From contig NC_092575.1 of assembly GCF_037975245.1 (NCBI RefSeq), forward strand, positions 13,435,001 to 13,499,000: a stretch of DNA of 64,000 bases, in the 5' to 3' direction. A program made the translations under genes and the position numbers. This document shows positions 4,661 to 52,084 of the stretch, one piece after another. The notes under the pieces were generated by a model. The model searched no databases. It saw only the letters and a list, made by a program, of their open reading frames with translations, and was not told the origin of the DNA. Numbering within the stretch: the stretch's first letter is position 1; each line of letters begins with the position of its first letter. The stretch is from Apostichopus japonicus. Lineage: Eukaryota > Echinodermata > Holothuroidea > Aspidochirotida > Stichopodidae.

Positions 4661-4669
4661 ACTGGGCTT

Positions 4670-4710
4670 ACCCACCTGAAGTTAGCAGGATATTCTGCTG
4701 GCAGGATATT
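4670..4710 (+). repeat. Left terminal inverted repeat of foldback element
   Basis: 41 bp beginning ACCCACCTGAAG and containing AGCAGGATATT twice. It matches the reverse complement of 21419-21459 with one difference. It adjoins the 9-bp direct repeat on its left. Confidence 0.8.
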
Positions 4711-4764
4711 TGGTTGAAGCAGGGTTGCCAGTTTTCCGGATACATTGTCGGTCAAATTGAGACA

Positions 4765-7609
4765 AAAAAAAAACGCCAAATTTGTATTTCATATATTTTT
4801 AGGTAATTGAACTTTTGTGTATGCATACATGGCCGATTACAGCCAAATTGCATAACCTAAACATATTTATGCCGGATCAAACATACTGGATTTTGATAGA
4901 TGCGACCCCTGGCCCCGTATCAGGACACATCTTCACCCTCTCATTGCCGTCCGTATGCCCAAAGAGGGCCCTATTCTCTGGATAGTCGTAATATCAGTAT
5001 TGAAATAAGACTGTCTAATTATAGTCAAATTGCATAGACTGAACATATTTATGCCGGACCAAACATACTGGATTTTCATAGATACGACCTCTGGCTCCCT
5101 AACAGAATACACTTTGACCCCCTCATTGCCGTCCGTATCCCCATAAAAGGGCCCTATTCTCTGGATAGTCGTAATATCAGTATAGTACTAAGACTAGTTA
5201 ATTACAGTAAAATTGCATTAACTGAACATATTTATGCCGGACTAAACATACTGGATTTTCCTAGATAATCTCCACGGCACCGTATCAGGAATGATTTTGA
5301 CCCCCTCATTGCCGTCCGTATGCCCAAAAAGGGCCCTATTCTCTCGATAGTCGTAATATCAGTATTGTACTAAGACTGGCTAATTACAGTCAAATTGCAT
5401 AGACTGAACATATTTATGCCGGACCAAACATACTGGATTTTGAAAGATACGACCGCTGGCTCCCTAACAGAATACATTTTGGCCCCCTCATTGCCGTCCG
5501 TATGCCCAAAGAGGGCCCTATTCTCTCGATAGTCGTAATATCAGTATTGTACTAAGACTGGCTAATTACAGTCAAATTGCATAGACTGAACATATTTATG
5601 CCGGACCAAACATACTGGATTTTGAAAGATACGACCGCTGGCTCCCTAACAGAATACATTTTGGCCCCCTCATTGCCGTCCGTATGCCCAAAGAGGGCCC
5701 TATTCTCTGGATAGTCGAAATATCAGTATTGTAATAAGACTGTCTAATTATAGTCAAATGGCATAATCTGAACATATCTATGCCGGACCAAACATACTGG
5801 ATTTTCATAGATACGACCTCTGGCTCCCTGACAGAATACACCTTGACCCCCTCATTGCCGTCCGTATCCCCATAAAAGGGCCCTATTCTCTCGATAGTCG
5901 AAATATCAGTATAGTACTAAGACTGGCTAATTACAGTAAAATTGCATAAACTGAACACATTTATGCCGGACCAATCATACTAGTTTTGGATAGTTACCGT
6001 CCATGGCCCCGTATCAGGAATGATTTTGACCCCCTCATTGCCGTCCGTATCCCCATAAAAGGGCCCTATTCTCTCGATAGTCGAAATATCAGTATAGTAC
6101 TAAGACTGGCTAATTACAGTCAAATTGCATAAACTGAACACATTTATGCCGGACCAATCATACTAGTTTTGGATAGTTACCGTCCATGGCCCCGTATCAG
6201 GAATGATTTTGACCCCCTCATTGCCGTCCGTATGCCCAAAGAGGGCCCTATTCTCTCGATAGTCGTAATACCAGTATTGTACTAAGACTGGCCGATTACA
6301 GTCAAATTGCATAACCTAAACATATTTATGCCGCACCAAACATACTGGATTTTGATGGATGCGACCCCTGGCCCCGTATCAGGACACATCTTCACCCTCT
6401 CATTGCCGTCCGTATGCCCAAAAGAGGGCCCTATTCTCTGGATAGTCGTAATATCAGTATTGTAATAAGACTGTCTAAGTATAGTCAAATGGCATAATCT
6501 GAACATATTTATGCCGGACCAAACATACTGGATTTTCATAGATACGACCTCTGGCTCCCTAACAGAATACATTTTGACCCCATCATTGCCGTCCGTATCC
6601 CCAAAGAGGGCCCTATTCTCTCGATAGTCGATATATCAGTATAGTACTAAGACTGGCTAATTACAGTCAAATTGCATAGACTGAACATATTTATGCCGGA
6701 CCAAACATACTGGATTTTCATTGATACTCTCCATGGCCACGTATCAGGAATGATTTCCACCCCCTCATTACCGTCCGTATGCCCAAAAAGGGCCCTATTC
6801 TCTCGATAGTCGAAATATCAGTATAGTACTAAGACTGGCTAATTACAGTCAAATTGCATAGATTGAACATATTTATGCCAGACCAAACATACTGGATTTT
6901 CATAGATACGACCTTTGGCTCCCTAACAGAATACATTTTGACCCCCTCATGGCCGTCCGTATCTCCATAAAAGGGCCCTATTCTCTCGATAGTCGATATA
7001 TCAGTATAGTACTAAGACTGGCCGATTACAGTCAAATTGCATAGACTGAACATATTTATGCCGGACCAAACATACTTGATTTTCATTGATACTCTCCATG
7101 GCCCCGTATCAGGAATGATTTCCACCCCCTCATTACCGTCCGTATGCCCAAAAAGGGCCCTATTCTCTCGATAGTCGAAATATCAGTATTGTACTAAGAC
7201 TGGCTAATTACAGTCAAATTGCATAGACTGAACATATTTATACCGGACCAAACATACTGGAGTTTGTTAGATACGACCTCTGGCTCCCTAACAGAATACA
7301 TTTTGACCCCCTCATTGCCGTCCGTATCCCCAAAGAGGGCCCTATTCTCTCGATAGTCGATATATCAGTATAGTACTAAGACTGGCTAATTACAGTCAAA
7401 TTGCATAGACTGAACATATTTATGCCGGACCAAACATACTGGATTTTCATTGATACTCTCCATGGCCCCGTATCAGGAATGATTTTGACCCCCTCATTAC
7501 CGTCCGTATCCCCAAAGAGGGCCCTATTCTCTCGATAGTCGATATATCAGTATAGTACTAAGACTGGCTAATTACAGTCAAATTGCATAGACTGAACATA
7601 TTTATGCCG
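4765..7609 (+). repeat. 182-bp satellite array, left arm
   Basis: About 15.5 units. The landmark gccgg occurs at 4871, 5053, 5236, 5418, 5600 and 5782 and continues on, giving a 182-183-bp period. Other landmarks are ttgccgtccgtat, agggccctattctct and tagtcg...atatcagtat. The first unit is the most diverged. The array stops abruptly at tttatgccgg, where an (AT)n tract begins. Short frames inside units (MYSVREPE...) are period artefacts. Confidence 0.95.
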
Positions 7610-7635
7610 GATATATATATATATATATTTATATA

Positions 7636-7825
7636 TATTCCTGCTACTCCTTGTCACTTTCGGTGATCATGCACTGAAGAAGAGCTAGTTTTGCTCGAAA
7701 GCTCTGCAAAAACCAAACATTGGCTGTTTTACTTCCAATCACTTACCTAATTCAATTATTGTATCTCACTCGAGATCCAGCCTTTCTCTAAATGCAGCAT
7801 AGTTGTTTAACAGTTTTCCGTTATT

Positions 7826-7904
<79 letters not shown>

Positions 7905-8045
7905 CTGGATCTCGAGTGAGATACAATAATTGAATTAGGTAAGTGATTGGAAGTAAAACAGCCAATGTAGGGTTTTTGCAGAGCTTTCGAGCAAAACTAG
8001 CTCTTCTTCAGTGCATGATCACCGAAAGTGACAAGGAGTAGCAGG
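7636..8045. repeat. Hairpin element: 150-bp inverted arms around (AT)n
   Basis: 7636-7790 and 7897-8045 are inverted copies (cctgctactccttgtcac, gtgatcatgcactgaagaag, gattggaagtaaaacagcc). They flank a spacer that includes an (AT)n run at 7829-7900. Each arm has a CTGAAGA...GAAA motif resembling a hammerhead core (see findings). A short AT run borders the left arm and a second AT tract is at 8140-8178. Confidence 0.8.
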
Positions 8046-8138
8046 AATTGAAACTATTTTATAGAGAAGATGTCGGCATGGTTGTAAAGGCAAAGCGACT
8101 TACTGATTTCTGCTGAATCGAGCAGAAGTTATATATAG

Positions 8139-8181
<43 letters not shown>

Positions 8182-8469
8182 ATATATGATTTAGAAATCA
8201 TATATGACCCCCATGGAACTATATACAAAGGTTATCAAATTTCACACAATTTTCAAATCTATCCGTGTGTGTGGCTGAGTTGTCCTCGGTGCCAATGTGA
8301 CTTTGGTGGTTAGATGTCTTCATGGCTGAGCTATCTCATGTGCCGGGATGTCCTTAAACCCCATGTTGTTACGGTTTCAATTGTAGGCCCTACTCCAGTT
8401 AAAACGCATCAACATTGACATCATCTACAGAGTAGGGAAGGTTGACCTAACAAAATGAAACATCCTGAC

Positions 8470-9383
8470 CAGTGGCGTAGCCAGGATTTTGTGTATGGGG
8501 GGGGGGGGGGGGGGGCAATATGCAGGACTATCTAAGCGGAGCGACACCATCAGTTGTCGCGGAGCGTACAAGAAAAGTTGAGGTTTTCAAGGTCCCCAGA
8601 TGGCAGGAAATAGCACTTCCAGGGCTTTATTAGCCCTGACAATATCATCATCATTATGTGTTTTGGGGGTTTACAGGGGCGATTTCTTATCATTTATTCC
8701 ACAGGTACCCACAATTATAAATTGCAACAAGGCTAATCCCACCATGAAAGGGATAAGTCCAGCTAAGCCCTTCCCTAGGACACTAACTCGAGGGCTGCCA
8801 ACTCTCCAACCTAAGAGGGTTGCCAATTGTAACATCGGCCAGGGCTGGCAATTTCGAATAGTCTGTCAGAACGTATTCGATTCGACTGTTTGCTCGAGCA
8901 CACATTCACTCCAGTAATCAATGGTGTGCCGTTTGCATATATAGACAGAAATATCACGCACGGTTAGAACCCCACCGCAGCAATGACTTATGATTATGAA
9001 TGAGTCATCACAAATCCACCGAAACTTGAAAGTGTGAACAACTTTCGCCTATAAATAGACCGGGGGACTTCCTTTGCAAAACCGTCAGTTCAGCCGCGCG
9101 GTGCTGTGCCTGTTTAGTCTTTACTGTAGCGTTAGTGATATGAATGTATCCTACGAAGTCTAATATTAGCGTCTGTGAGGTAGCCTAATGAAAGAGTGTA
9201 TCGAATCTGCTGGTCCAGGGCCGGGCTATGGCACGGGTCTGTGCCTAGCCTGAGGGCTGCACCTTGGCCAGCTGACTGTTGCCAGTTAATGACCTCGCAT
9301 TGGCAGAAACTTAAAAATTTTCCGACATCCGTGAAGGGGGGGGGGGTCATGGCCCAATGGCCTCCCCCCTAAATACGCCCCTG
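8470..9383. mobile_element. hAT-like non-autonomous element, 914 bp
   Basis: The left end is CAGTGGCGTAGCCAGG and the right end is ATACGCCCCTG (inverted CAGGGGCGTAT). The flanks ATCCTGAC (8462-8469) and ATCCTAAC (9384-9391) match at 7 of 8, an aged 8-bp target duplication typical of hAT. Poly-G runs lie near both ends. The core ctatctaagcggagcg at 8528 is shared with the elements at 24027 and 32101. No intact transposase frame is seen; the 105-codon frame at 8600 has no recognised similarity. Confidence 0.72.
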
Positions 9384-11404
9384 ATCCTAACAACTCCTGG
9401 GTGACTTAAGCATTATGCAATTCATACAGAATATCAGTGTCCATAGTTGCAGAACAGATTGAGCGTGAAAGCGTATCAGGGGGAATGTTCTCTTTGCCAG
9501 GGCGATAGATGATATCAAAGACATAGCAAGATACTGGATAGTTCCATCCGCCAACGCATTATTTTCTCATTCCAGTTGGTTAAATTGACGTGACCTATAA
9601 CTGTAGGTTTTAACCAACTAGAATGAGTAAACACAACAAGCACCGTGGTCGAAGGTGAACACATTTAAATCCTGACTGTGGTCCAGGGAGCATACTACTA
9701 ATAACATCACAAACATCATAATGTAATAATATGATAATATAATATAATAATTATAGTTTCCTAATTGCATGATAGACAAAATAATATCAACGTATTGTAG
9801 CGGGAAAATACTTAACGTTATTTATAAGGTTAAGGTTACGCGTAGCTAGAAAAGTACTGAAGTACCGTATAAGTAGTATAAGCAATGACATAAGGAGAGA
9901 GTGGAGTCGGCAGTTCAAATGGTCATTGAAGGCCGGTTATTGGGCGTATATGCAACAAGTTGACTTTGGTTGTGGTCACTCGTAGACAAATTCGGATCGA
10001 ACCTGCTGTTTTAGAAAGAGGTACTGGCAACATTTGGGAGCACTCATCCAGATGGGCCCGTGGAAAATGTGTGTCCGGCATGATGTAACTGGAAATTATA
10101 ATGCAACCAAAGGTATAGCTTACCAAGTGGTGGCCAAGGGCATGTCCCTACTAGATGCTCACAGCAACCTCGCTACTTTAAAGGGTATTACGTCATATAC
10201 AATAAAACATCGTGATATGATGTTACTGGTTTATGGCCCGGTTGTTAATTATGCCATTAAATATAAGTAGTTTTTTATCCTACATTCTACATGCGTGTCG
10301 TTAACTGTGTACATATTGAAGTATATCATGTAGTATAGACAATTATAGCCTAGCTTATAAATGTTGCGATAGTATCGTGTATTTGGACCAATTTATTTAT
10401 GTATTATAGACCATTGGCCCCGATAGTATGAAACAACAAAACTTCGTGAGCATATACTGGTACTCCAAGGTTTAACTTATGAGGTCTTTATTAAACCTAT
10501 GGTAGTTTTTACTGAAAATCAAGGTAAGCCATTTCGACAAATCAGTATAAATTACCAATCACAATGTAAGTAAGTACTCAGAACTTCAGATCCATAACCA
10601 GAAAGAAGAGGTCAAAATAAAGGAAACGAATCCTCATTATTTTTTAAAATTAATTTTATGCACAGATCTGGCCTGCTCTTAAAAATTGGTCCCGTTTGGC
10701 GTTTACATGACCCTCTAAACCAATTTATGCTGAATAGCAATACTGCACGATTTTTAGTTTTCTATAATACTAAAGATCTTTAAAAGAAGTTATAGTGTAT
10801 TTCCAATGTGTTTCCCAAATGATCACCAAGGCAGTTATATTTTGTTCAATGTTGACTGTTAGCACCTATTGAGCTATACCCAATTCCATTATAAAGTACG
10901 TTAGGGCAAATAATATAGTGAGGCGATGCAATTAAGATGAGACCATATCTGCCTAAGCATCTACCACCACCACGACGAGATGAATTTTATGTTACCATAT
11001 CCCTGACCTTAAATAGCACCCGTTCAATGTCCCACCGTTGGGCTCCACGAAAGTTACTTAAGTTAATAAGATAAATGGATGAATAAACAATACAAAGAGA
11101 TAAATTACTTGTATATTTGTTTCTCACATTGTTTTAATCGGTGTCGAAGGCGAACTTGGCGAAAGGAATCTATGTAGTCATGATGGTGTGTGTGTGCGTG
11201 TGTATGTATGTCTGTGACACTGCTTGTAAACACGATAAGTAAAGAACGCAAATATCTACAATACCTGGCATGTATATTGCCCATACTGTTCTTAGTGCTG
11301 TTCCAAGGTCATTTGGGGTCAACAGAGTCAAACAACGAAAACCTTGTAAACACGTGAACTTGATAAGACAAGGTCATTAGAGGCTCATATTTAGTATGTA
11401 AGTT
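9384..11404. other. Core of the foldback element, no recognised gene
   Basis: About 2 kb of unique-looking DNA between the arms. It has a strong hairpin at 9566-9627 and a GT-rich run near 11186-11205. The longest open frame (10034-10270, 78 codons) has no recognised motif and no splice signals that would extend it. If the foldback element ever carried its own transposase, this is where remnants should be, but none is recognisable by eye. Confidence 0.5.
9566..9627. repeat. Imperfect hairpin, 19-bp arms
   Basis: The arms are CTCATTCCAGTTGGTTAAA (9566-9584) and TTTAACCAACTAGAATGAG (9609-9627). They pair at 18 of 19 positions around a 24-nt loop. It could be a minimal palindromic element or a structured transcript segment. 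Confidence 0.7.
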
Positions 11405-12302
11405 ATGAAAAATTTTGATGTAATCGGCAGCCGCTCTTAAGTTACATTTATACTATTATAACCATCTTGGAAAGAATGGAGCCTTCTTTAGGGATATAGA
11501 CGGCAACGAGGGGGTTGAGCTGTTCCGTATAGGGGGCTATAGGGGGCATATCTATCAAACTCCATTATATTGGCTCCGGCATAAATATGTTCAGGCTATT
11601 CCATTTGGCTGTAATCGGCCGCCAATCTTAGATTTTTACTTATATTACCACTATCGAGAGAAAAGGGCCTTCTTTGGGAATACGCACGGCAATGAGGGGG
11701 TAAAGATGTGTCCTGATACGGGGCCAGGGTTCGCATCTATAAAAATCCAGTATGTTTTGTCCGGCATAAATATGTTGAGGTTATGCAATTTGGCTGTAAT
11801 CGGCCGACAATCTTAGATTAAAACTAATATTACCAATATCGATAGAATAGGGCCCTCTTTGGGAATACGGACGGTAATCAGGGAGTCAAAATGTTTGCTG
11901 ATACGGGGCCAGGGGTAAAATCTATAAAAATCCAGTATGTTTGGTCCGGCAAAAATATGTTGAGGTTATGCAATTTGCTTGTAATCGGCCAGTCTTAGTA
12001 CAATACTGATATTACGACTATCGAGAGAATAGGGCCCTCTTTGGGGATACGGACGGCAATGAGGGGATCGAAATCATTCCTGATACGGGGCCATGGAGAG
12101 TATCTATGAAAATCCAGTATGTTTGGTCCGGCATAAATATGTTCAGTCTATGCAATTTGACTGTAATTAGCCAGTCTTAGAACTATACTAATATATCGAC
12201 TATCGAGAGAATAGGGCCCTTTATGGGGATACGGACGGCAATGGGGGGGGGGTCAAAATGTATTCTGTTAGGGAGCCAGAGGTCGTATCTAACAAAATCC
12301 AG
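11405..12302 (-). repeat. 182-bp satellite array, right arm, inner part
   Basis: About five units in the opposite orientation to 4765-7609. The two innermost units (11405-11800) are the most diverged, as expected at an array edge. The array is interrupted at 12303-12305 by the 4.13-kb transposon and resumes at 16440. Confidence 0.9.
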
Positions 12303-14187
12303 TATTAGGCCATCAGCTGAAGCTCAAAATGTGGCTGTAAAATCAGTTTCGTTCCAGCAACACCGGGTCTAGACTTTTAATGCATTTTTGGGTAGTTTAA
12401 TGCATCACAAACATTATATCAAAAGTTCTCCAAAAAATTTCCTGCAGTATTTTTGTAACGCACCCTTGAAATTGGGTATGTTATGTAGACATTACGTGCT
12501 ACGATGCTATGTATTAGGAACACATGTGCTAACGTTAGATTTGGTACAGTGGTGCATACATACCACTCTTTTCTTATATGTTTAATTACGACTGATATAT
12601 TTTTTTTGTATAATAGTTGGGTCAGGGTTACAAGAATGGTGAAAGAGGATTCTGGTCTAAGGGTCAGTGAGGGTTGTTTTCAGGCATTACAAGTTGTGCC
12701 CTCCCCCCCCCCCCCCTCCATTTTCGCCAAAATGGTAAAAAATCACATTTTCAACTTTGAAACATGAAAAACAATTATTGCACATTATAACTTAAGGGTT
12801 TTAATTCTAAAAATGTACCACTTTTAATAAACTATGATATATATTGCTTTGTAATAAATCAAATACTTTTAGATTTTCCCCCTATGTTATGAATGCATTT
12901 CGTCTGTGCATGTATGCGTAAATATACACATATAATGAAAAGTTCCTCTTCATAATTGTTACACTCCCCATCCAAACTGTTTTACACATGTGACCCCCTC
13001 CCCCTCTACTTTACATGTAGCTAAATCCCTAGTTACAGTGAGATGTGCCAATGCCCCAAGACCAGTGAGTTATTTCTTTTGTATAAATCAATATATAAGT
13101 TGGCACACTAAGACATCATGGCATATCGTAGATGTGAAATAAAGTTAGTCGGTATATATCCGTTACCTTAGTACTCTTTCTACAGTCTTCTGCAAAACTA
13201 GGTACTTTCTCCATGTTACGGAAACGAAATGTTTATAATTCGTATTCCTGCAAAAAGTGTTTCCAAGGGAGTTAACGTATAAAAGAAAAGATCGACAAGG
13301 TTTCGAATGGTATTTTGAATAATAATAGTTCTATATTCTACAAATAATATGAATAATAAAGGTGAATGGTACAAATAAGTGAATAACGAAGACAGTTAAC
13401 TTAAGCCCCAGATAGAAAGAAATAATGTATCTATTAAGACTGGGTCGATACACTCAATGGTGTAGTAGAGCTGGGCCTTTGCGATGATTCAAGATACAGG
13501 TTCTTCATCAAAAGGCGCGGCGAGGAATTAATAAGTGATTAAAAGTTTATCCAAGGACAGTTGTACTAGTTATAACAGGATCCACTTCAATTCACTGCAT
13601 GGAAGTCAGATATGGTATGGAAAAGGGAAAGTCCATTCCGTAGTAGAGGTGAAGATAATTAGATGAAATAAAAGTCACTAAAGACTTGAATATCCTTCAG
13701 TCAAAACTTGAACAGATGCACAAAACGTGTTAACAATATGAATAAAACAGGTAACGAAATGTTACGGCAAAACAATAAAGAACCGTGATATTGGAACAGG
13801 GTCAGGGGCGATGGTTCCCCAACAACAGTATATAAACCTCTGACTGGTTTCAGGACGCGGTATTTGCGTCATCGTCATCAGTAAATGTAGTTGTGAGTAT
13901 GCAAGAGGTAAAGCATGCCCATAACACCCTCCTCCCCCATCCCCTCTCAGCAAAAAAAGTGTGATTTGAAGAAAATGTGGATATTTATCATAAGGTGTCT
14001 GGTAGGTAGGGTAATCTACGTAAAACTACTAATAGCTAAAATGAATATATGAATAAGATCATGTTTTCTGGTTCCTTTAAACTCTGGGGAACAAAATAAT
14101 GACAACATGACTTTGAAAAAGTTAACCCTCTTCACAAACTTCAAACTTGATTAAAATTTCAGACTAAGATATCAAGATTTAACACCA

Positions 14188-14590
14188 TCATAGTTCATCC
14201 TCCAAATCATCTTCCCCTGCATCAACAATCTCAACATCTTCTTGGAAGTTGCTGCAATTTCTATATTTACATAGGTCTGTACAGGGTAGTTGTGCATTCA
14301 TTCAGGAACATCTTCCTTTAAGACATTTGCCGACTCTACAGCTACTGCTGACACACTGAAGCGAAACATCTGGGTCAGGTGGCTTCGTCATCCAAGTGAT
14401 TATAAGGTCATCATTTTCAAGTTTCCATCCATGTCCCTCTGGTGAGAGTGCATCAATCCTTTGCTGCAATGCCCTACTGTGAATAGCAGCCTGGTTGGTG
14501 CAGCGCTTAACATGCTGGATCAGAGCATCTTTTGTTGGTGGTAAACTCTGCTCTGAGGAGGAGATGAACAGAACACCTTGTACCATGAAA
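14188..14590 (-). pseudogene. C-terminal exon of orphan transposon protein, Cys-rich tail
   Basis: Translates as SLPPTKDALIQHVKRCTNQA, then SPEGHGWKLENDDLIITWMT and KPPDP, then a Cys-rich tail. This is the LPPTxDAL...GWK...W.T.PP...C.C...GLxCTDLC pattern of a large family of uncharacterised proteins that I recall from cnidarian, mollusc, echinoderm and fish genomes. The tail reads CRVGKCLKGRCS, a TGA stop, then MNAQLPCTDLCKYRNCSN and an acidic end with a stop at 14188-14190. The frame is unbroken except for that TGA, which sits where relatives usually have Cys. One nonsense change explains it best. The upstream acceptor may be GGTACAAG near 14577. Confidence 0.6.
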
Positions 14591-14824
14591 TTGGATATTT
14601 TTGAGTCTCACATTTTATGATGGGCTACCAATATAATTACAATTCAGCTAGAAATATGTTGCAAATTACTTTAACAATTTCAATGGAAAGATTAACCTGA
14701 TATTGCATCTCAAAGCGTTTAGAGAATTTTTTAATTTTCCTTTGGGGGAGGACCCCCATATTCCAAAAGTCCTAGATCCACCCCTGAACACTCAATGAAC
14801 CACACATTGAAGAGAGTACTTTAC

Positions 14825-14975
14825 CTTTCAAGATCTGTATGTCTTCCTTGTCAAGAATTGTATCTAGTTTCTTCAACATAGAGAGTGGTACCTCACTTCA
14901 ATGGCAACACAGTCTTTTAATATTCATAAAATCTGGGCTCATCTTTTTTCCGCTCTGCTGCTTGTCGAAGCAATC
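14825..14975 (-). pseudogene. Possible middle exon of the orphan transposon protein
   Basis: The acceptor is TTATTAAAG and the donor is CTTGAAAG|GTAAAG. The frame gives DCFDKQQSGKKMSPDFMNIK, one TGA stop, then SEVPLSMLKKLDTILDKEDI. No similarity is claimed; it is listed because of the splice signals and its place between the two recognised pieces. Confidence 0.35.
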
Positions 14976-15646
14976 CTTTAATAAAATGAAATAAAAAAGC
15001 AAATTGTTTTGCATTTTCTGTTGATCAAAATGTAAGTTTGAACAAATAAGAACTAAGACAATTTTATTTCTATACCATGTGATCTGCTCATCTTCTATGG
15101 ACAAACAAAGACACATTCAAATTTTGCAAACCAGTGTCATGCAAAAAAGAATTAAAACAGGCTTTTTTTGACAGTACAGTACATTATCTCTTAATGTTTA
15201 AATTATACAATGGTAGATTATATCTGTTACTAATAATAAAGGAGACACATACTTGTTCATTTTGGTAAAGCTAGACAGGCTGATCATAAGACCTTGCAAA
15301 CCTAACCTTATTGCACCTTTGTTACACTTATTTTTCTAACTAATATAATATCTCTATCATTCAAATAAAGGGCCACAGTAAGAAAACTATGAAGCCTGTA
15401 TTTAACACTTAGGCTAGTGCCCCAGATGGAGAATTTGAAACAAATTTCCATTCCTACCACCTTATAACAAAAACAAATCAGATGACCATGCCACTAATTA
15501 TATTATGTTCAGGTCCAACACTGTGCCCTTTGACTTGGATTCTATTCCTCAAGAGCTACTACTGATCTTGCATTATGCAACTTCTCTTAACACTTCAACT
15601 ATGCCACAGAAGTACAAGTAGAGTCGTGTAGTATGCTTAGGCTTAC

Positions 15647-16133
15647 CTCCATCGAAAGTCTCTGCCTGCTGCAGCTTGTCCTGCACCCGTTTGCAACGCC
15701 GAGTAATGTATTGTTTCTTTTCCCACATATAATAAATTGAACAGGCAATACACCAGAGCTTCTGCTTGGTTTCCTCGATCTTTTCCGTCAATTCTTCGTT
15801 TAAAATCATATGGGGTCTCCTCTGGAACTGTCCGTTTTCTTGCAGCAATGTGCTTGCTATCAATGAACCGCCTGTAACACTTATCGTGGAACCCCATCAT
15901 ACTATGCTGTTGAACACACGCTTGATCGTAGTAGGCCATGGAGTAATCAGTAGTACGGCGATATCACTGTCTCCGCCGCTGAGATTAAGCCAATCTTTAG
16001 CGCAAGAAGTAACTTTAGTCCATCGTTTATTCGTCAGTGCCTTGACTGCTTCAAATTTTACAGATTCAATGTGCACTGAGCACTGTAGATTTCCGTGTGT
16101 CGAAGACTGACTAGCGCCCGTGGGAGCCGCCAT
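15647..16133 (-). pseudogene. N-terminal exon of orphan transposon protein, frameshifted
   Basis: Starts at an ATG (MAAPTGASQSSTHGNLQ). It continues VKFEAVKALTNKRWTKVTSC, then AKDWLNL, then after a frame change FHDKCYRRFIDSKHIAARKR. A second frame change leads to LNEELTEKIEETKQKLWCIA and a donor GATGGAG|GTAAGC. The W..V..CA..W...FH..CYR.F motif is the N-terminal signature of the family whose C-terminus lies at 14188-14590. At least two frameshifts show that this copy is dead. Confidence 0.5.
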
Positions 16134-16439
16134 GTTTGTTGTTTTCTACAAAGATTGCACACAGAACTCATGGCTCATTGGACAATTCATATCACATGGT
16201 ACAGATATCTCACTGGCGCACAACTTTTGAACGTAAAACGGCAGGTTTCTTAACATACGCAATAAAAAAATATAGTTCGATCTTTCGAGCGGAATTGCAA
16301 AAAAAACTGCAGGAAAGTACATGGAGAACTTTTGGATCATTAATCTAAGTTAATTTATGTATTCAATGCTGTAGAGAAATTTTAGACCCGCAGTTGCTGG
16401 AACGAAACAAGCGAATTTCGACCTTCAGCTGATGGCCTA

Positions 16440-19400
16440 TATGTTTTGTCCGGCATAAATATGTTCAGTCTATGCAATTTGACTGTAATTAGCCAGTCTT
16501 AGAACTATACTGATATATCGACTATCTCGAGAATAGGGCCCTTTAATGGGGATACGGACGGCAATGAGGGGGTCAAAATGTATTCTGTTAGGGAGCCAGA
16601 GGTCGTATCTAACGAACTCCAGTATGTTTGGTCCGGCATAAATATGTTCAGTCTATGCAATTTGACTGTAATTAGCCAGTCTTAGTACTATACTGATATT
16701 ACGACTATCGAGAGAATAGGGCCCTCTTTGGGGATACGGACGGCAATGAGAGGGTCAAAATATCTCCTGTTAGGGAGCCAGGGGTCGTATCTATCAAAAT
16801 CCAGTATGTTTGGTCCGGCATAAATGTGTTCAATTTATGCAATTTGACTGTTATTAGCCAGTCTTAGTACAATACTGATATTACGACTATCTAGAGATTA
16901 GGGCCCTCTTTGGGGATACGGACGGCAATGAGGGGGTGGAAATCATTCCTGATACGGGGCCATGGAGAGTATCTATGAATATCCAGTATGTTTGGTCCGG
17001 CATAAATATGTTCAGTCTATGCAATTTGACTGTAATTAGCCAGTCTTAGTACAATTCTGATATTACGACTATCGAGAGAATAGGGCCCTCTTTTGGCATA
17101 CGGACGGCAATGATGGGGTCAAAATGTATTCTGTTAGGGAGCCAGAGGTCGTATCTATCAAAGTCCAGTATGTTTGGTCTGGCATAAATATTTTCAGTCT
17201 ATGCAATTTGACTGTAATTAGCCAGTCTTAGTACAATACTGATATTACGACTATCTAGAGAATAGGGCCCTCTTTGGGGATACGGACGGCAATGAGGGGG
17301 TCAAAATATCTCCTGTTAGGGAGCCAGGGGTCGTATCTATCAAAATCCAGTATGTTTGGTCCGGCATAAATATGTTTAGTTTATGCAATTTGACTATAAT
17401 TAGCCAGTCTTAGTACAATACTGATATTACGACTATCGAGAGAATAGGGCCCTCTTTGGGGATACGGACGGCAATGAGGGGGTGGAAATCATTCCTGATA
17501 CGGGGCCATGGAGAGTATCTATGAAAATCTAGTTTGTTTATGCAATTTGACTGTAGTTAGCCAGTCTTAGAACTATACTAATATATCGACTATCGAGAGA
17601 ATAGGGCCCTTTTATGGGGATACGAACGGCAATGAGGGGGTCAAAATGTATTCTGTTAGGGAGCCAGAGGTCGTATCTAACAAAATCCAGTATGTTTGGT
17701 CCGGCATAAATATGTTCAGTCTATGCAATTTGACTGTAATTAGCCAGTCTTAGAACTATACTGATATATCGACTATCGCGAGAATAGGGCCCTTTAATGG
17801 GGATACGGACGGCAATGAGGGGGTCAAAATGTATTCTGTTAGAGAGCCAGGGGTCGTATCTATCGAAATCCAGTATGTTTGGTCCGGCATAAATGTGTTC
17901 AGTTTATGCAATTTGACTGTTATTAGCCAGTCTTAGTACAATACTGATATTACGACTATCTAGAGATTAGGGTGCTCTTTGGGGATACGGACGGCAATGA
18001 GGGGGTGGAAATCATTCCTGATACGGGGCCATTGAGAGTATCTATGAAAATCCAGTTTGTTTGGTCCGGCATAAATATGTCTATGCAATTTGACTGTAAT
18101 TAGCCAGTCTTAGAACTATACTAATATATTGACTATCGAGAGAATAGGGCCCTTTTATGGGGATACGAACGGCAATGAGGGGGTCAAAATATATTCTGTT
18201 AGAGAGCCAGGGGTAAAATCTATCAAAATCCAGTATGTTTGGTCCGGCATAAATATGTTCAGTCTATGCAATTTGACTGTAATTAGCCAGTCTTAGTACA
18301 ATACTGATATTACGACTATCGAGAGAACAGGGCCCTCTTTGGGGATACGGACGGCAATGAGGGGGTCAAAATGTATTCTGTTAGGGAGCCAGAGGTCGTA
18401 TCTAACAAAATCCAGTATGTTTGGTCCGGCATAAATATGTTCAGTCTATGCAATTTGACTGTAATTAGCCAGTCTTAGAACTATACTAATATATCGACTA
18501 TCGAGAGAATAGGGCCCTTTTATGGGGATACGAACGGCAATGAGGGGGTCAAAATATATTCTGTTAGAGAGCCAGGGGTAAAATCTATCAAAATCCAGTA
18601 TGTTTGGTCCGGCATAAATATGTTCAGTCTATGCAATTTGACTGTAATTAGCCAGTCTTAGTACAATACTGATATTACGACTATCGAGAGAACAGGGCCC
18701 TCTTTGGGGATACGGACGGCAATGAGGGGGTCAAAATGTATTCTGTTAGGGAGCCAGAGGTCGTATCTAACAAACTCCAGTATGTTTGGTCCGGCATAAA
18801 TATGTTCAGTCTATGCAGTTTGACTGTAATTAGCCAGTCTTAGAACTATACTAATATATCGACTATCGAGAGCATAGGGCCCTTTTATGGGGATACGAAC
18901 GGCAATGAGGGGGTCAAAATATATTCTGTTAGAGAGCCAGGGGTAAAATCTATCAAAATCCAGTATGTTTGGTCCGGCATAAATATGTTCAGTCTATGCA
19001 ATTTGACTGTAATTAGCCAGTCTTAGTACAATACTGATATTACGACTATCGAGAGAACAGGGCCCTCTTTGGGGATACGGACGGCAATGAGGGGGTAAAA
19101 ATGTATTCTGTTAGGGAGCCAGGGGTCGTATCTATGAAAATCCAGTATGTTTGGTCCGGCATAAATATGTTCAGTTTATGCAATTTGACTGTAATTAGCC
19201 AGTCTTATTACAATACTGATATTACGACTATCGAGAGAACAGGGCCCTCTTTGGGGATACGGACGGCAATGAGGGGGTCAAAATGTATCCTGTTAGGGAG
19301 CCAGGGGTCGTATCCATCAAAATCCAATATCTTCGGTCCGGCATAAATATGTTCAGTCTATGCAATTTGACTGTAATTAGCCAGTCTTATTACAATACTG

Positions 19401-21201
19401 ATATTACGACTATCGAGAGAATAGGGCCCTCTTTGGGGATACGGACGGCAATGAGGGGGTCAAAATATCTCCTGTTAGGGAGCCAGGGGTCGTATCTATC
19501 AAAATCCAGTATGTTTGGTCCGGCATAAATGTGTTCAATTTATGCAATTTGACTGTTATTAGCCAGTCTTAGTACAATACTGATTTTACGACTATCGAGA
19601 GAATAGGGCCCTCTTTGGGCATACGGACGGCAATGAGGGGGTCAAAATGTATTCTGTTAGGGAGCCAGTGGTCGTATCTATCAAAATCCAGTATGTTTGG
19701 TCCGGCATAAATATGTTCAGTCTATGCAATTTGACTGTAATTAGCCAGTCTTAGTACAATTCTTATATTACGACTATCGAGAGAACAGGGCCCTCTTTTG
19801 GCATACGGACGGCAATGAGGGGGTCAAAATGTATTCTGTTAGGGAGCCAGCGGTCGTATCTATCAAAATCCAGTATATTTGGTCCAGCATAAATATGTTC
19901 AGTCTCTGCAATTTAACTGTAATTAGACAGTTTTAGCACAATACTGATATTACGACTATCTAGAGAATAGGGCCCTCTTTGGGGATACGGACGGCAATGA
20001 GAGGGTCAAAATATCTCCTGTTAGGGAGCCAGGGGTCGTATCTATCAAAATCCAGTATGTTTGGTCCGGCATAAATGTGTTCAGTTTATGCAATTTGACT
20101 GTTATTAGCCAGTCTTAGTACAATACTGATATTACGACTATCTAGAGATTAGGGCCCTCTTTGGGGATACGGACGGCAATGAGAGGGTTAAAATGTATCC
20201 TGTTAGGGAGCCAGGGGTCGTATCTAACAAAATCCAGTATGTTTGGTCCGGCATAAATGTGTTCAGTTTATGCAATTTGACTGTAATTAGCCAGTCTTAG
20301 TACAATTCTTATATTACGACTATCTAGAGATTAGGGCCCTCTTTGGGGATACGGACGGCAATGAGAGGGTTAAAATGTATCCTGTTAGGGAGCCAGGGGT
20401 CGTATCTAACAAAATCCAGTATGTTCGGTCCGGCATAAATGTGTTCAGTTTATGCAATTTGACTGTTATTAGCCAGTCTTAGTACAATTCTTATATTACG
20501 ACTATCGAGAGAACAGGGCCCTCTTTTGGCATACGGACGGCAATGAGGGGGTCAAAATGTATTCTGTTAGGGAGCCAGCGGTCGTATCTATCAAAATCCA
20601 GTATATTTGGTCCAGCATAAATATGTTCAGTCTCTGCAATTTAACTGTAATTAGACAGTTTTAGCACAATACTGATATTACGACTATCTAGAGAATAGGG
20701 CCCTCTTTGGGGATACGGACGGCAATGAGAGGGTCAAAATATCTCCTGTTAGGGAGCCAGGGGTCGTATCTATCAAAATCCAGTATGTTTGGTCCGGCAT
20801 AAATGTGTTCAGTTTATGCAATTTGACTGTTATTAGCCAGTCTTAGTACAATACTGATATTACGACTATCTAGAGATTAGGGCCCTCTTTGGGGATACGG
20901 ACGGCAATGAGAGGGTTAAAATGTATCCTGTTAGGGAGCCAGGGGTCGTATCTAACAAAATCCAGTATGTTTGGTCCGGCATAAATGTGTTCAGTTTATG
21001 CAATTTGACTGTTATTAGCCAGTCTTAGTACAATACTGATATTACGACTATCGAGAGAATAGGGCCCTCTTTGGGGATACGGACGGCAATGAGGGGGTCA
21101 AAATGTTTCCTGCTACGAAGCCAGTGGTCGTATCTATCAAATCCAGTATGTTTGGTGCGGCATAAATATGTTCAGTCTATGCAATTTGACTGTAATTAGC
21201 C
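16440..21201 (-). repeat. 182-bp satellite array, right arm, outer part
   Basis: About 26 units, inverted relative to the left arm. Unit variants recur in order. A dimer (about 362 bp, alternating cagggccctctttgg and agggcccttttatgg units) repeats around 18240-18960. A four-unit block repeats at 19751 and 20479, exactly 728 bp apart. Unequal exchange within the arm is the likely cause. The array ends at tgtaattagcc. Confidence 0.95.
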
Positions 21202-21418
21202 ATGATAATTTCATGATAAACCGTTATAACTTGTTATTAAAAATGATCACTTGACCACCCATCATATGAATCAGCGCTACGATTTATTTGAAACAGTACA
21301 CAAGTTAGTGTTTTCTGGGGTTTTGTCTAATGTCGCTGGTCACCCTGGCAAAAAAAGTTTTCTCATTGACTTTGTACACGCTACAACTCCTAAATTTCCA
21401 CGTTGACTTTGTACACAG
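21202..21418. other. Spacer between satellite arm and right terminus
   Basis: About 215 bp without a gene. It holds two copies of TTGACTTTGTACAC (near 21368 and 21402), directly before the terminal inverted repeat. The left arm has no counterpart of this spacer. Confidence 0.55.
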
Positions 21419-21459
21419 AATATCCTGCTAGCAGAATATCCTGCTAACTTCAGGTGGGT
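21419..21459 (-). repeat. Right terminal inverted repeat of foldback element
   Basis: Ends CTTCAGGTGGGT and is followed at once by ACTGGGCTT (21460-21468). It is the inverted counterpart of 4670-4710, at 40 of 41 positions. Confidence 0.8.
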
Positions 21460-21743
21460 ACTGGGCTTGAGATCACCACAGTAAAGTGAGCCGCACTTTC
21501 AGCCGCGTTTTCAAACGATGGGAGGTGACAGCAATTTCTGAAGTTAGAGTGTGCATACTCGAAATGTGCAACTAGACAGGCTAGCGAAGCGCAATACGGT
21601 GTCTTGTAATGGCCATTAATTATCATAAGTCTGACAACAGGTACATTAGTTTTACATTTAATAATAATAATAATTATCTCAATTTAAAATTACTTGGCAA
21701 TTTGATGTTTCCCTCTTTTTTTCAGGCTCAAACTATATACAAA

Positions 21744-23380
21744 ATTGGAGTGATCCGATGCCCACACAAGGATATATGACGTCATCAAATACCCCTTCCT
21801 CACAAAAATATTCAAAAGAGATTTCAAAATGCTTAACTTGCACATAATTCGAATGTGCGGCTGAGTCTATATCTGCAATTGGCCTCATAGAAACTTCTTC
21901 AAATTCATATATATTGTAGAAATACTCTTCATCTATACCCTCATATTAAGATTGGAGTGATCCGATGCCCACACAAGGATATATGACGTCATCAAATACC
22001 CCTTCCTCAAAACAATTTACGAGAGATTTCAAATTAAGGTTAAACTTTACACATAAATCGAATGTTCGGCTGAGTTTATATCTGCATTTAGCCTCATAGA
22101 AACTCCTTCAAATTCATATATATTGTAGAACTACTCTTCATCTATACCCTCATATTAAGATTGGAGTGATCCGATGCCCACACAAGGATATATGACGTCA
22201 TCAAATACCCCTTCCTCACAAAAACATGCACAAGAGATTTCAAAATGCTTAACTTACACATAATTCGAATGTGCGGCTGAGTCTATATCTCATTTGACCT
22301 GATAGAAAATCCTTCAAATTCATATATATTGTAGCACTACTCTTCATCTATTCCCTCATATTAAGATTGGAGTGATCCGATGCCCACACAAGGATATATG
22401 ACGTCATCAAATACCCCTTCCTCAAAAATATTGGGATTTCAAATTAAGGTTAAACTTTACACATAAATCGAATGTGCGGCTGAGTTCATATCTGCAATTG
22501 GCCTCATAGCAACTCCTTCAAATTCATATATATTGTAGAACTACTCTTCATCTATACCCTTATATTAAGATTGGAGTGATCCGATGCCCACACAAGGATA
22601 TATGACGTCATCAAATACCCCTTCCTCAAAAATATTCACAAGAGATTTCAAATTAAGGCTAAACTTTACACATAAATCGAATGTGCGGCTGAGTTTATAT
22701 CTGCAATTGGCCTCATAGAAACTTCTTCAAATTCATATATATTGTAGAACTACTCTTCATCTATACCCTCATATTAAGATTGGAGTGATTTGATGCCCAC
22801 ACAAGGATATATGACGTCATAAAGTACCCCTTCCTCAAAACAATTTACGACCGATTTCAAAGTCAACAATCAAATATTATACACATAAATCGAATGTGCG
22901 GCTGAGTTTATATCTGCATTTAGCCTCATAGAAACTCCTTCAAATTCATATATATTTTAGAACTACTCTTCATCTATACCCTCATATTAAGATTGGAGTG
23001 ATCCGATGCCAACACAAGGATATATGACGTCATCAAATACCCCTTCCTCACAAAAACATTCACAAGAGATTTCAAAATGCTTAACTTACACATAATTCGA
23101 ATGTGCGGCTGAGTTCATATCTGCATTTAGCCTCATAGAAACTCCTTCAAATTCATATATATTGTAGCACTACTCTTCATCTATACCCTCATATTAAGAT
23201 TGGAGTGATCCGATGCCCACACAAGGATATATGACGTCATCAAATACCCCTTCCTCAAAAATATTGGGATTTCAAATTAAGGCTTAACTTTACGCATAAT
23301 TCGAACGTGCGGCTGAGTTTATATCTGCATTTGGCCTTATAGAAACTCCTACAAATTCATATATATTGTAGAAGTACTCT
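21744..23380 (+). repeat. Second satellite, about 206-bp unit, eight units
   Basis: The landmark attggagtgatccgatg recurs at 21744, 21951, 22160, 22366 and onward to about 23197. Each unit has the conserved block aaggatatatgacgtcat, an inner variable stretch, gaatgtgcggctgag and atattgtag. Units differ by small deletions after cttcctca. It is unrelated to the 182-bp satellite and lies outside the 9-bp duplication. Confidence 0.93.
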
Positions 23381-26794: not shown

Positions 26795-27388
26795 TACGTT
26801 GCAACTGATAACTACGACCGACGGGAACTGTACGAAACACTTTTGCGTAATTCGTGGTTAGATGGCATCGTAGTCAATGACTATTTAGATTTGCTGCAAA
26901 CACAGGTGACGAATTTCAACGTGTTCCTTTGCAATTCGTTCCAAATGATTTCACGAATTTCAATTTCCAAAATTGCTAGAAAATGGTATAGAACACAGAA
27001 ACTCATCGGAAGTAGATGGATTCTCCTTCCCGTTAATCGAATCGGCGTACACTGGGTACTCCTAGCTGCAAATGCAATAACGCAATCACTTTATTATCTC
27101 GACCCCCTCGGAGGCGACAATCTTGGTGGAGAAATGGAGTGTTTCATTCGTTTCATCGACGAGAGGTCAGCGTTGGAAGGACATTCATGGCGCTGTATGA
27201 AATGGTCGTTTAAAACAACTTCTTGTAAATTGTCACTCCAACTAACCCCAAACGACTGTGGTCTGTTTATCCTTCTTTACGCCAGAACTTTGTTGTTGGA
27301 GAAGAATATGCAAAATAACACGGACATTCAAGCGGAACGGAATTCAATATACCAAACACTTCACAATTACGATATGCAGCGGTTATAA
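26795..27388 (+). CDS. ULP1/SENP-type cysteine protease (C48), terminal exon
   Basis: The exon begins after the acceptor CCCCAGTTAG, because a TAG lies in frame just upstream. It encodes YVATDNYDRRELYETLLRNS, then WLDGIVVNDYLDLLQ (the ULP1 W-L-x-D/G-x-x-V/I-N-x-Y-L opening). The catalytic set is complete: His in GVHWVLL (codon 27050-27052), Asp in YYLDPLGG (27101-27103), Gln in SLQLTPNDCG (27239-27241), Cys in the same motif (27257-27259). The frame is intact to a TAA. Such enzymes cleave SUMO-like proteins. In animals many stand-alone ULP1 exons are transposon cargo, and a MULE transposase lies 1.6 kb downstream on the same strand. Membership of that element is an inference, since no termini tie them. 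Earlier exons are not identified. Confidence 0.75.
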   Translation, partial: YVATDNYDRRELYETLLRNSWLDGIVVNDYLDLLQTQVTNFNVFLCNSFQMISRISISKIARKWYRTQKLIGSRWILLPVNRIGVHWVLLAANAITQSLYYLDPLGGDNLGGEMECFIRFIDERSALEGHSWRCMKWSFKTTSCKLSLQLTPNDCGLFILLYARTLLLEKNMQNNTDIQAERNSIYQTLHNYDMQRL

Positions 27389-51078: not shown

Positions 51079-51448
51079 GTAAGTGTAACGAAACTACTTT
51101 TTTTTTATAAAGTGTAATAACATCAATAAATCTTGAAAGCCAATTCATTGTTATTACGAATAATTACCATCGTGGTACAGACTCTTATCGTATGCCAAAA
51201 AGTGTGTTTAATAATGGTAACAGTTCGCATCACAATGGAGTCTCTATGTACGAGTAATGAATTCAATATCAGCACTAGTTTATGCGAGCAATCACGAGAC
51301 AAAACATATGACAATTCTACGTTTGTGATAACTCACAAATGGATTAAAACGTTATTTTGTTTGTTAGTCTGTTAGAAAAAGGTGGATCTGTGTTTTTGTA
51401 AGGTATTAAAAATAATCACTGTCAATCTACTTTCAGAACATCTCGGAA

Positions 51449-52084
51449 ATGTCATCGCCGTCGTGCTATGAGTGTAAACGACCACTTTCAAGATATATAA
51501 TTCCAGATAGTGAATCAGGATTGCTGGGTTTTACGTGTTTCAAATGTAAATTTGAGTGGTTCACGAGAGACCATGTTCTTGGAAGACATGGTCGTAAAAT
51601 TATCCACAATGATATGCGATATTACCAGACGCGACAACCACTTACACAAAAGCCCACTTTAGAAAGAGTTGAAACAATTGCTGATCTCAGAAGAGGAGAT
51701 CAACTAGTGTGGAAAGAAACTTTAGAACACCACGCAATCGTATCCAAAGTTTATGATACATCGTTTAAGGTGATTCATTTCGCTCAGTGCTCTGGCCCTC
51801 AAAAATGCAAAATAAGAGAGGATCATTGCCGAGAATTAGACACAGAAGTAGTAAATGTGGCTAAATTTGATCCGGAGAGCAAATATGACCCACTTGTCAT
51901 CCTTTCTCGTGCAAATTGGATGCATTCACACAGTGAAAATATGCAATATCGTTTACTTAGTTTTAACTGTGAAACGTTAGCAAATTTCTGCTCTACTGGG
52001 GTTTTTATATCTTTTCAAGCAAACGATGTCGTAAATGCGATCATTGGGAGCGCGATGAGTTCGGTAGCAATGGCACCAAAATAG
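51449..52084 (+). CDS. LRAT-domain (NlpC/P60-like) protein, 211 aa
   Basis: The start is the first ATG after the acceptor CTACTTTCAG (51427-51436); the CDS has no introns. Residues 6-33 hold CxxC-x20-CxxC (CYEC...CFKC), probably a small zinc ribbon. The LRAT domain starts near residue 77 with IADLRRGDQLVWKETLEHHA. His94 aligns with the HWA histidine of LRAT/HRASLS enzymes, and His110 (KVIHFAQ) with their second histidine. Cys174 in FNCETLANFCSTG matches the NCEHF nucleophile motif. Known LRAT-family members are thiol acyltransferases or phospholipases acting on membranes, or regulators without proven activity. A C-terminal hydrophobic anchor, common in HRASLS/LRAT, is not obvious; the end is only mildly hydrophobic. 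The frame is intact, catalytic residues are kept, and two AATAAA signals follow. The N-terminal zinc-ribbon fusion is not an arrangement I recall from vertebrate members. Confidence 0.85.
   Translation: MSSPSCYECKRPLSRYIIPDSESGLLGFTCFKCKFEWFTRDHVLGRHGRKIIHNDMRYYQTRQPLTQKPTLERVETIADLRRGDQLVWKETLEHHAIVSKVYDTSFKVIHFAQCSGPQKCKIREDHCRELDTEVVNVAKFDPESKYDPLVILSRANWMHSHSENMQYRLLSFNCETLANFCSTGVFISFQANDVVNAIIGSAMSSVAMAPK

Follow-up and report, generated by a model that had tools for sequence, protein, structure and literature searches.

A 16,790-bp element in the genome of the sea cucumber Apostichopus japonicus belongs in all likelihood to a genuine family of DNA transposons with arms formed by satellite arrays, kilobases in length and opposed in orientation; this is the best explanation overall. 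The element occupies positions 4670-21459 of the window, i.e. the whole stretch of 64,000 nucleotides that was analysed (assembly GCF_037975245.1, contig NC_092575.1, positions 13,435,001 to 13,499,000). Where dispersed satellites come from and by what route they spread is a long-standing question. A single genome here displays the carrier together with its duplications and a candidate transposase, as well as near-identical copies that stand at several sites and differ in unit number. The window copy would be a non-autonomous, internally deleted member of a cut-and-paste family with satellite arms. A 33-kb copy appears to encode the corresponding enzyme, a PHD-finger DDE transposase of the Rehavkus or Mutator/IS256 sort, which would act on the 41-bp ends.

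Ends, duplications and genomic copies

The element is bounded by copies of ACTGGGCTT, which adjoin its termini directly, with a gap of 0. As described in the initial annotation, the 41-bp inverted termini differ by one mismatch, an identical 9-bp repeat stands immediately outside both of them, and opposed 182-bp arrays lie inside. The termini had also been taken for the edges of the arrays; the arrays do lie within the element, but they start 119 and 216 bp inside its ends. ACTGGGCTT occurs twice in the 64-kb window, both strands counted. The window was scanned for 9-bp direct repeats abutting a 14-bp inverted terminus with at most one mismatch, (TA)n runs being masked, and a single pair was found in 64 kb, the element's own ends. 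An 8-bp version of the scan gave 313 pairs in the window and none in any of five order-1 random sequences. Among the matches listed (20 of 313), all 8-bp pairs lie within the opposed satellite arrays, where the palindromic AGGGCCCT gives rise to false pairs.

The genome (671,581,487 bases, 35 contigs) was searched with both ends of the element. It had been proposed that the terminus would recur beside the satellite elsewhere, and this is the case: all ten full-length matches to the left end and all 15 long matches to the right end carry the 182-bp satellite on their inner side, no more than about 70 bp away. Of the 36 matches in the right-end search, the remaining 21 fall into 12 at the termini of left ends and nine that cover shorter stretches of the right spacer. 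Eleven copies have two ends, and all of them carry opposed satellite arrays of varied length. Other loci with 9-bp duplications at both ends, likewise anticipated, were also found, since ten of the 11 two-ended copies have a perfect 9-bp duplication that is different at each. The left termini of the 11 copies match the right terminus at 95-100%. Copies measure 9.6-33 kb and their satellite arms 0.4-6 kb. Where no insertion interferes with the reading, the arms start about 110-240 bp inward of the ends. The copy on C20 (28539439 region, L039:1479-1520) shows a 20-bp tandem duplication between the right terminus and the 9-bp duplication.

Two observations speak against such a family. The two-ended copy at C8:15.49M (15493001-15505133) has the unlike flanks TAAGACGAA and GCTTACTTG; it is perhaps a recombinant between two copies. 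Moreover, opposed 182-bp arrays abut each other at L052:2034-4219 and L053:286-2514, with no terminus in the small stretches fetched. These are arms joined after loss of the middle, or free arrays.

Three further left-end matches are partial. Those at C8:18.87M and C10:14.80M have satellite inside, and the one at C10:11.85M (C10:11849500-11853736, L054) has no satellite in the 3 kb fetched. The latter fragment stands about 2.6 kb from a distant relative of the candidate transposase (29% identity). Five of the nine right-spacer-like pieces (L044-L048) have neither terminus nor satellite.

The candidate transposase and a second family

The 33-kb copy holds an intact open reading frame (ORF) of 1560 amino acids with a PHD finger (PF00628, E-value 2.5e-6) and a DDE-like core. 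The nearest solved folds to the catalytic core are those of ISCth4 (6xg8, 6xgw, 6xgx; the top match, with about 12% sequence identity) and of the P element. A sequence search of the Protein Data Bank with the core gave no match, and the closest named homologue of the protein comes from Holothuria leucospilota.

Several points count against the assignment. The Foldseek matches are weak (best E-value 1.5e-3, TM-score of about 0.3 or less for ISCth4), and the ISCth4 and P element folds are tied within 1 Z. A Pfam scan of the core at E-values up to 1 returned no transposase model. The transposase is intact in one copy only, and we infer its action on the 41-bp ends. Finally, two weak pairs of ends also enclose the ORF, one with a 9-bp repeat and 2/10 end mismatches, the other with an 8-bp repeat and 1/10. 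The presence of an intact ORF in a single family copy and these weak pairs would also fit a gene that belongs to an unrelated transposon nested in the 33-kb copy, the true transposase of the family being another; so would the fact that about 16 kb around the ORF are unique to this copy among those fetched, short matches aside. We nevertheless regard a nested origin as unlikely, since family sequence lies on both sides of the ORF, no other enclosing pair of ends comes close to that of the family itself, and a second family with a PHD-DDE gene has it between opposed arrays at five of five loci examined.

This second family came from a search with the transposase, which gave 17 stop-free divergent relatives with frames of at least 881 amino acids, the 33-kb copy excluded. 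Satellites were checked for five of the 17, all of the same family with a 213-bp satellite (C4, C14, C8, C22 and C3; 24% identity; frames of 1340-1509 amino acids). The L055 part of the C14 frame (1282 amino acids) contains a PHD finger (E-value 8.7e-6) and a ubiquitin carboxyl-terminal hydrolase domain (E-value 2e-20), and is 25% identical to the transposase of the 33-kb copy over 493 residues (E-value 1e-34). It stands between opposed 213-bp arrays, at L055:1-2883 (plus) and at 12669-13401 of the joined L055 and L056 (minus). The 213-bp unit has no detectable likeness to the 182-bp unit. A genome search with it gave 517 matches, the array layout being taken from the best of them. Among the matches listed, a plus array lies below and a minus array above the transposase (contig coordinates) at all five loci, an opposed pair without a listed transposase is found on C11 and on C17, and arrays of one orientation are found at C22:16.57M, C4:26.27M, C17:1.48M, C17:30.84M and C3:11.45M. 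Neither termini nor duplications could be made out for this family, both outer stretches fetched being still satellite.

Because related transposases thus carry unrelated 182-bp and 213-bp satellites in the same opposed layout, satellite arms may be a standing, sequence-independent part of the PHD-finger DDE lineage. Such a lineage would repeatedly acquire or give birth to satellites and seed satellite DNA genome-wide, as paired arms serve the transposons. We offer this tentatively, as a possibility that we still hold to be somewhat doubtful. If true, paired arms may serve by joining the ends or via a chromatin state that the PHD finger recognises. The second family with its unrelated satellite lets one ask whether paired arms are needed by the lineage or merely tolerated.

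Movement and divergence of the satellite arms

The arrays have a period of 182-185 with 82-91% matches and consist of a non-coding unit repeated head to tail, i.e. they are satellite DNA. The likeness of the satellite to the terminus or the spacers never rose above that of shuffles, and its derivation from either was rejected. Left and right spacers are weakly alike, with a score reached by 12 of 500 shuffles. No CENP-B box was found in the 182-bp unit with the one pattern tried, and viral contigs searched with the terminal inverted repeat and with the unit motif gave no match to either.

The proposal that a mobile element includes the satellite and spreads it by transposition is supported by three copies, at C8:1.34M, C17:4.76M and C19:29.1M, which stand at different sites with different duplications. 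Across the aligned left arm and middle (7.4-8.1 kb) their identity is 99.5-99.7%, and the right arms of the C17:4.76M and C19:29.1M copies are 98.6% and 99.8% identical to that of C8:1.34M, compared over the last 1.8 kb only. Their left arms measure 4896 bp (C8:1.34M), 4166 bp (C17:4.76M) and 5991 bp (C19:29.1M), and the compared stretch of one right arm shows a one-unit difference. Large alignment gaps between the near-identical copies nearly always comprise whole units, which is partly forced in a periodic array; the unequal arm length among otherwise near-identical copies is evidence independent of the alignment. Near-identical copies with unequal arms at different sites indicate that the element takes its arrays along when it moves and that their number of units changes fast. 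Within the window, the right arm (16440-21202) contains a recent four-unit duplication, 545 bp being exact at an offset of 728 bp.

For 249 of 322 units from ten copies, the nearest unit in other copies lies in the same arm, about one half being expected; therefore the arms descend mostly separately through transposition. The count omits C10, the right arm of C20, positions 11470-12305 of the window and units outside 165-200 bp, and includes only eight right units each from C19:29.1M and C17:4.76M. Unit subtypes are common to both arms of the window copy, which rules out that each arm grew independently from one unit. The paired arms therefore stem from one diversified array or have exchanged units, and we prefer an inverted duplication of the array early in the history of the family.

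The cycle we propose runs as follows. Insertion creates a 9-bp duplication, as seen at ten of the 11 two-ended copies, and the transposed unit includes both arms, as the near-identical arms at sites with different duplications show. Passed on arm by arm via transposition, the arms mostly evolve apart, and between copies they gain and lose 182-bp units. Expansion by unequal exchange had been suggested from the start; array length does differ between near-identical copies, and unequal exchange or slippage would be the simplest mechanism.

Instead of being paired, the arms could be the halves of one satellite array split by an inversion. In the window copy the most divergent units are those at the outer edge on the left and at the inner edge on the right, as would suit the two ends of one array. 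Even so, we disfavour this explanation as improbable, since both window arms have the same base of the unit at their outer edge and the inner-left units are nearer to the inner-right than to the outer-right ones (r 0.15, 32 of 5000 permutations, autocorrelation ignored). The same layout is present in every fetched two-ended copy and is therefore older than the window locus. More improbable still is a fixed satellite locus hit by chance by transposon ends, or growth of the arrays in place after insertion of a small element. Units within one arm differ by 9-12% on average, exceeding the single mismatch of the termini, and the most divergent ones stand at array edges, both of which would suit growth in place. 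This is contradicted by the same-arm nearest units, by the opposed arms of 11 of 11 two-ended copies, and by the 98.6-99.8% identity of aligned arm parts across three copies at different sites. An assembly artefact of inverted repeats is hardly credible, for although opposed arrays are difficult to assemble, the window arms differ by 11% in sequence and two-fold in length, there are 11 independent two-ended copies, and the published A. japonicus genome, if it is the same assembly, is described as built from PacBio HiFi reads (PMC10344927).

Known satellite-armed transposons and further features of the window

Satellite-armed transposons are already known, namely Rehavkus-1_TC with TCsat23, and Tetris. 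According to published descriptions, Rehavkus elements combine a PHD finger with a 9-bp duplication and inverted ends of 26-400 bp, a minisatellite preceding the 3' terminus (PMC6446971), and Rehavkus-1_TC of Tribolium carries arrays of the TCsat23 satellite (164-bp unit) in its inverted termini (PMC10218199, PMC6446971). All published Rehavkus features that were tested recur here: the 9-bp duplication in ten of 11 two-ended copies, inverted termini within the given range (41 bp), a PHD finger with the transposase (PF00628 in the 33-kb copy) and satellite at or near the termini, in this family at either end and over lengths of up to kilobases. This likeness rests on descriptions of features, not on protein sequence. 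Rehavkus-1_TC is given as 9.5 kb long, its arrays having mostly 5 and 8 units, compared with copies of 9.6-33 kb and arms of 0.4-6 kb here. Unlike in Rehavkus as described, spacers of about 110-240 bp stand between the 41-bp ends and the satellite, and the host is an echinoderm, whereas the 2019 survey, as far as consulted, places Rehavkus in Arthropoda and Annelida.

Tetris of Drosophila virilis is reported to have a foldback layout, 8-10 bp duplications and TIR-220 tandem units in both arms (PMC4079207). It shares with the present family the foldback layout, arms of tandem units, a link to satellite DNA and complete copies without conserved ORFs. In that account, the Tetris units lie inside long inverted repeats and have 37 bp in common with the outer domain, whereas termini and spacers here are without likeness to the satellite; no transposase of Tetris is known (PMC4079207). 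Tm1 of Meloidogyne (PMC3169594) and Muta1 of Aedes (PMC5225508) have transposases of Mutator-like elements (MULEs). These and other Aedes MULEs resemble the present family in that they make 8-10 bp duplications and have tandem subrepeats close to their ends (PMC3169594, PMC5225508). Their subrepeats, as described, are of 9-15 bp and lie within the inverted repeat; here, 182-bp units form kilobase arrays inside a short repeat.

As the Rehavkus features recur and Tetris is close, the element belongs to a known kind. The initial annotation had called this an unusual origin for tandem DNA, which the published Rehavkus-1_TC and Tetris make less unusual; new here are the size, the intact ORF and the recurrence. 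The literature searches listed neither the present family nor any sea cucumber transposon that carries a satellite, which is no proof of absence.

Drosophila foldback (FB) elements likewise make 8-10 bp duplications and have tandem subrepeats close to their ends, but their long inverted repeats are made of short subrepeats of 9-15 bp. In the present element the inverted repeat is 41 bp long and the satellite unit is unrelated to it. The designation as a foldback transposon thus holds for the foldback-like layout, but the element is not an FB element, the satellite lying outside the 41-bp inverted repeat. Its duplication falls within the 8-11 bp of the MULE superfamily, of which the IS256 family is the bacterial relative.

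Table 1. Features of the window copy (positions in the window)
Feature	Position	Strand	Remarks
Left 9-bp target site duplication ACTGGGCTT	4661-4669	.	repeated at 21460-21468
Left terminal inverted repeat, 41 bp	4670-4710	+	40/41 identical to right one
Left subterminal spacer	4711-4829	+	satellite-free; length nearly constant across other copies
Left satellite arm, 182-bp unit, about 15 units	4830-7611	+	
Palindromic insert flanked by (TA)n	7612-8129	.	fetched stretches of other copies differ here
hAT-like insertion	8470-9383 (listed 8462-9391)	.	8-bp duplication ATCCTGAC/ATCCTAAC
Non-coding middle	9384-11469	.	about 94-98% to other family copies
Right satellite arm, inner part, most divergent units	11470-12305	-	
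Nested DNA transposon, 4.1 kb	12306-16439	.	inverted ends TAGGCCATCAGCTGAAG, TAT duplication
Right satellite arm, about 26 units	16440-21202	-	
Right subterminal spacer	21203-21418	-	accompanies terminus at 15 genome loci
Right terminal inverted repeat, 41 bp	21419-21459	-	
Right 9-bp target site duplication ACTGGGCTT	21460-21468	.	

The nested transposon, overlooked in the initial annotation, splits the right satellite array. It is separate from the host element and was inserted later; no match to it was found in the fetched stretches of the ten other copies, three of which were fetched incompletely. The hAT-like insertion is common to four copies, the window copy included, and is absent at the equivalent place in the 33-kb copy. 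A palindrome around a (TA)n tract (7637-8048) was not seen in other fetched copies. A CTGAAGA...GAAA stretch in it was reminiscent of a hammerhead ribozyme, but no such match appeared in the Rfam listing. Over 7500-9500 at E-values up to 0.5, Rfam gave only six microRNA rows, all far below the cut-offs and due to the palindrome and its (TA)n.

In the non-coding middle no stop-to-stop ORF above 100 amino acids lies wholly inside, and nine ORF pieces had no Pfam match above the cut-off. Remains of a Gypsy-type RNase H/integrase, spotted by eye at about 8206-9664, were discarded, the single-frame pieces having no Pfam match above the cut-off, as was a sulfotransferase-like ORF spotted in the same way in the C10 copy, two pieces of which had no Pfam match. 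No transposase was found among the ORFs and pieces of the window copy that were searched.

Outside the element, a tandem array with a 209-bp unit (21744-23380) starts 276 bp beyond the right end; when compared with the 213-bp unit, its own unit proved unrelated. An ORF at 26795-27388 has a Ulp1/C48 protease domain, and a C48 domain also occurs in P0013 of Misgurnus, a homologue of the PHD-DDE transposase. A further ORF at 51416-52084 has an LRAT-type domain and three unnamed homologues.

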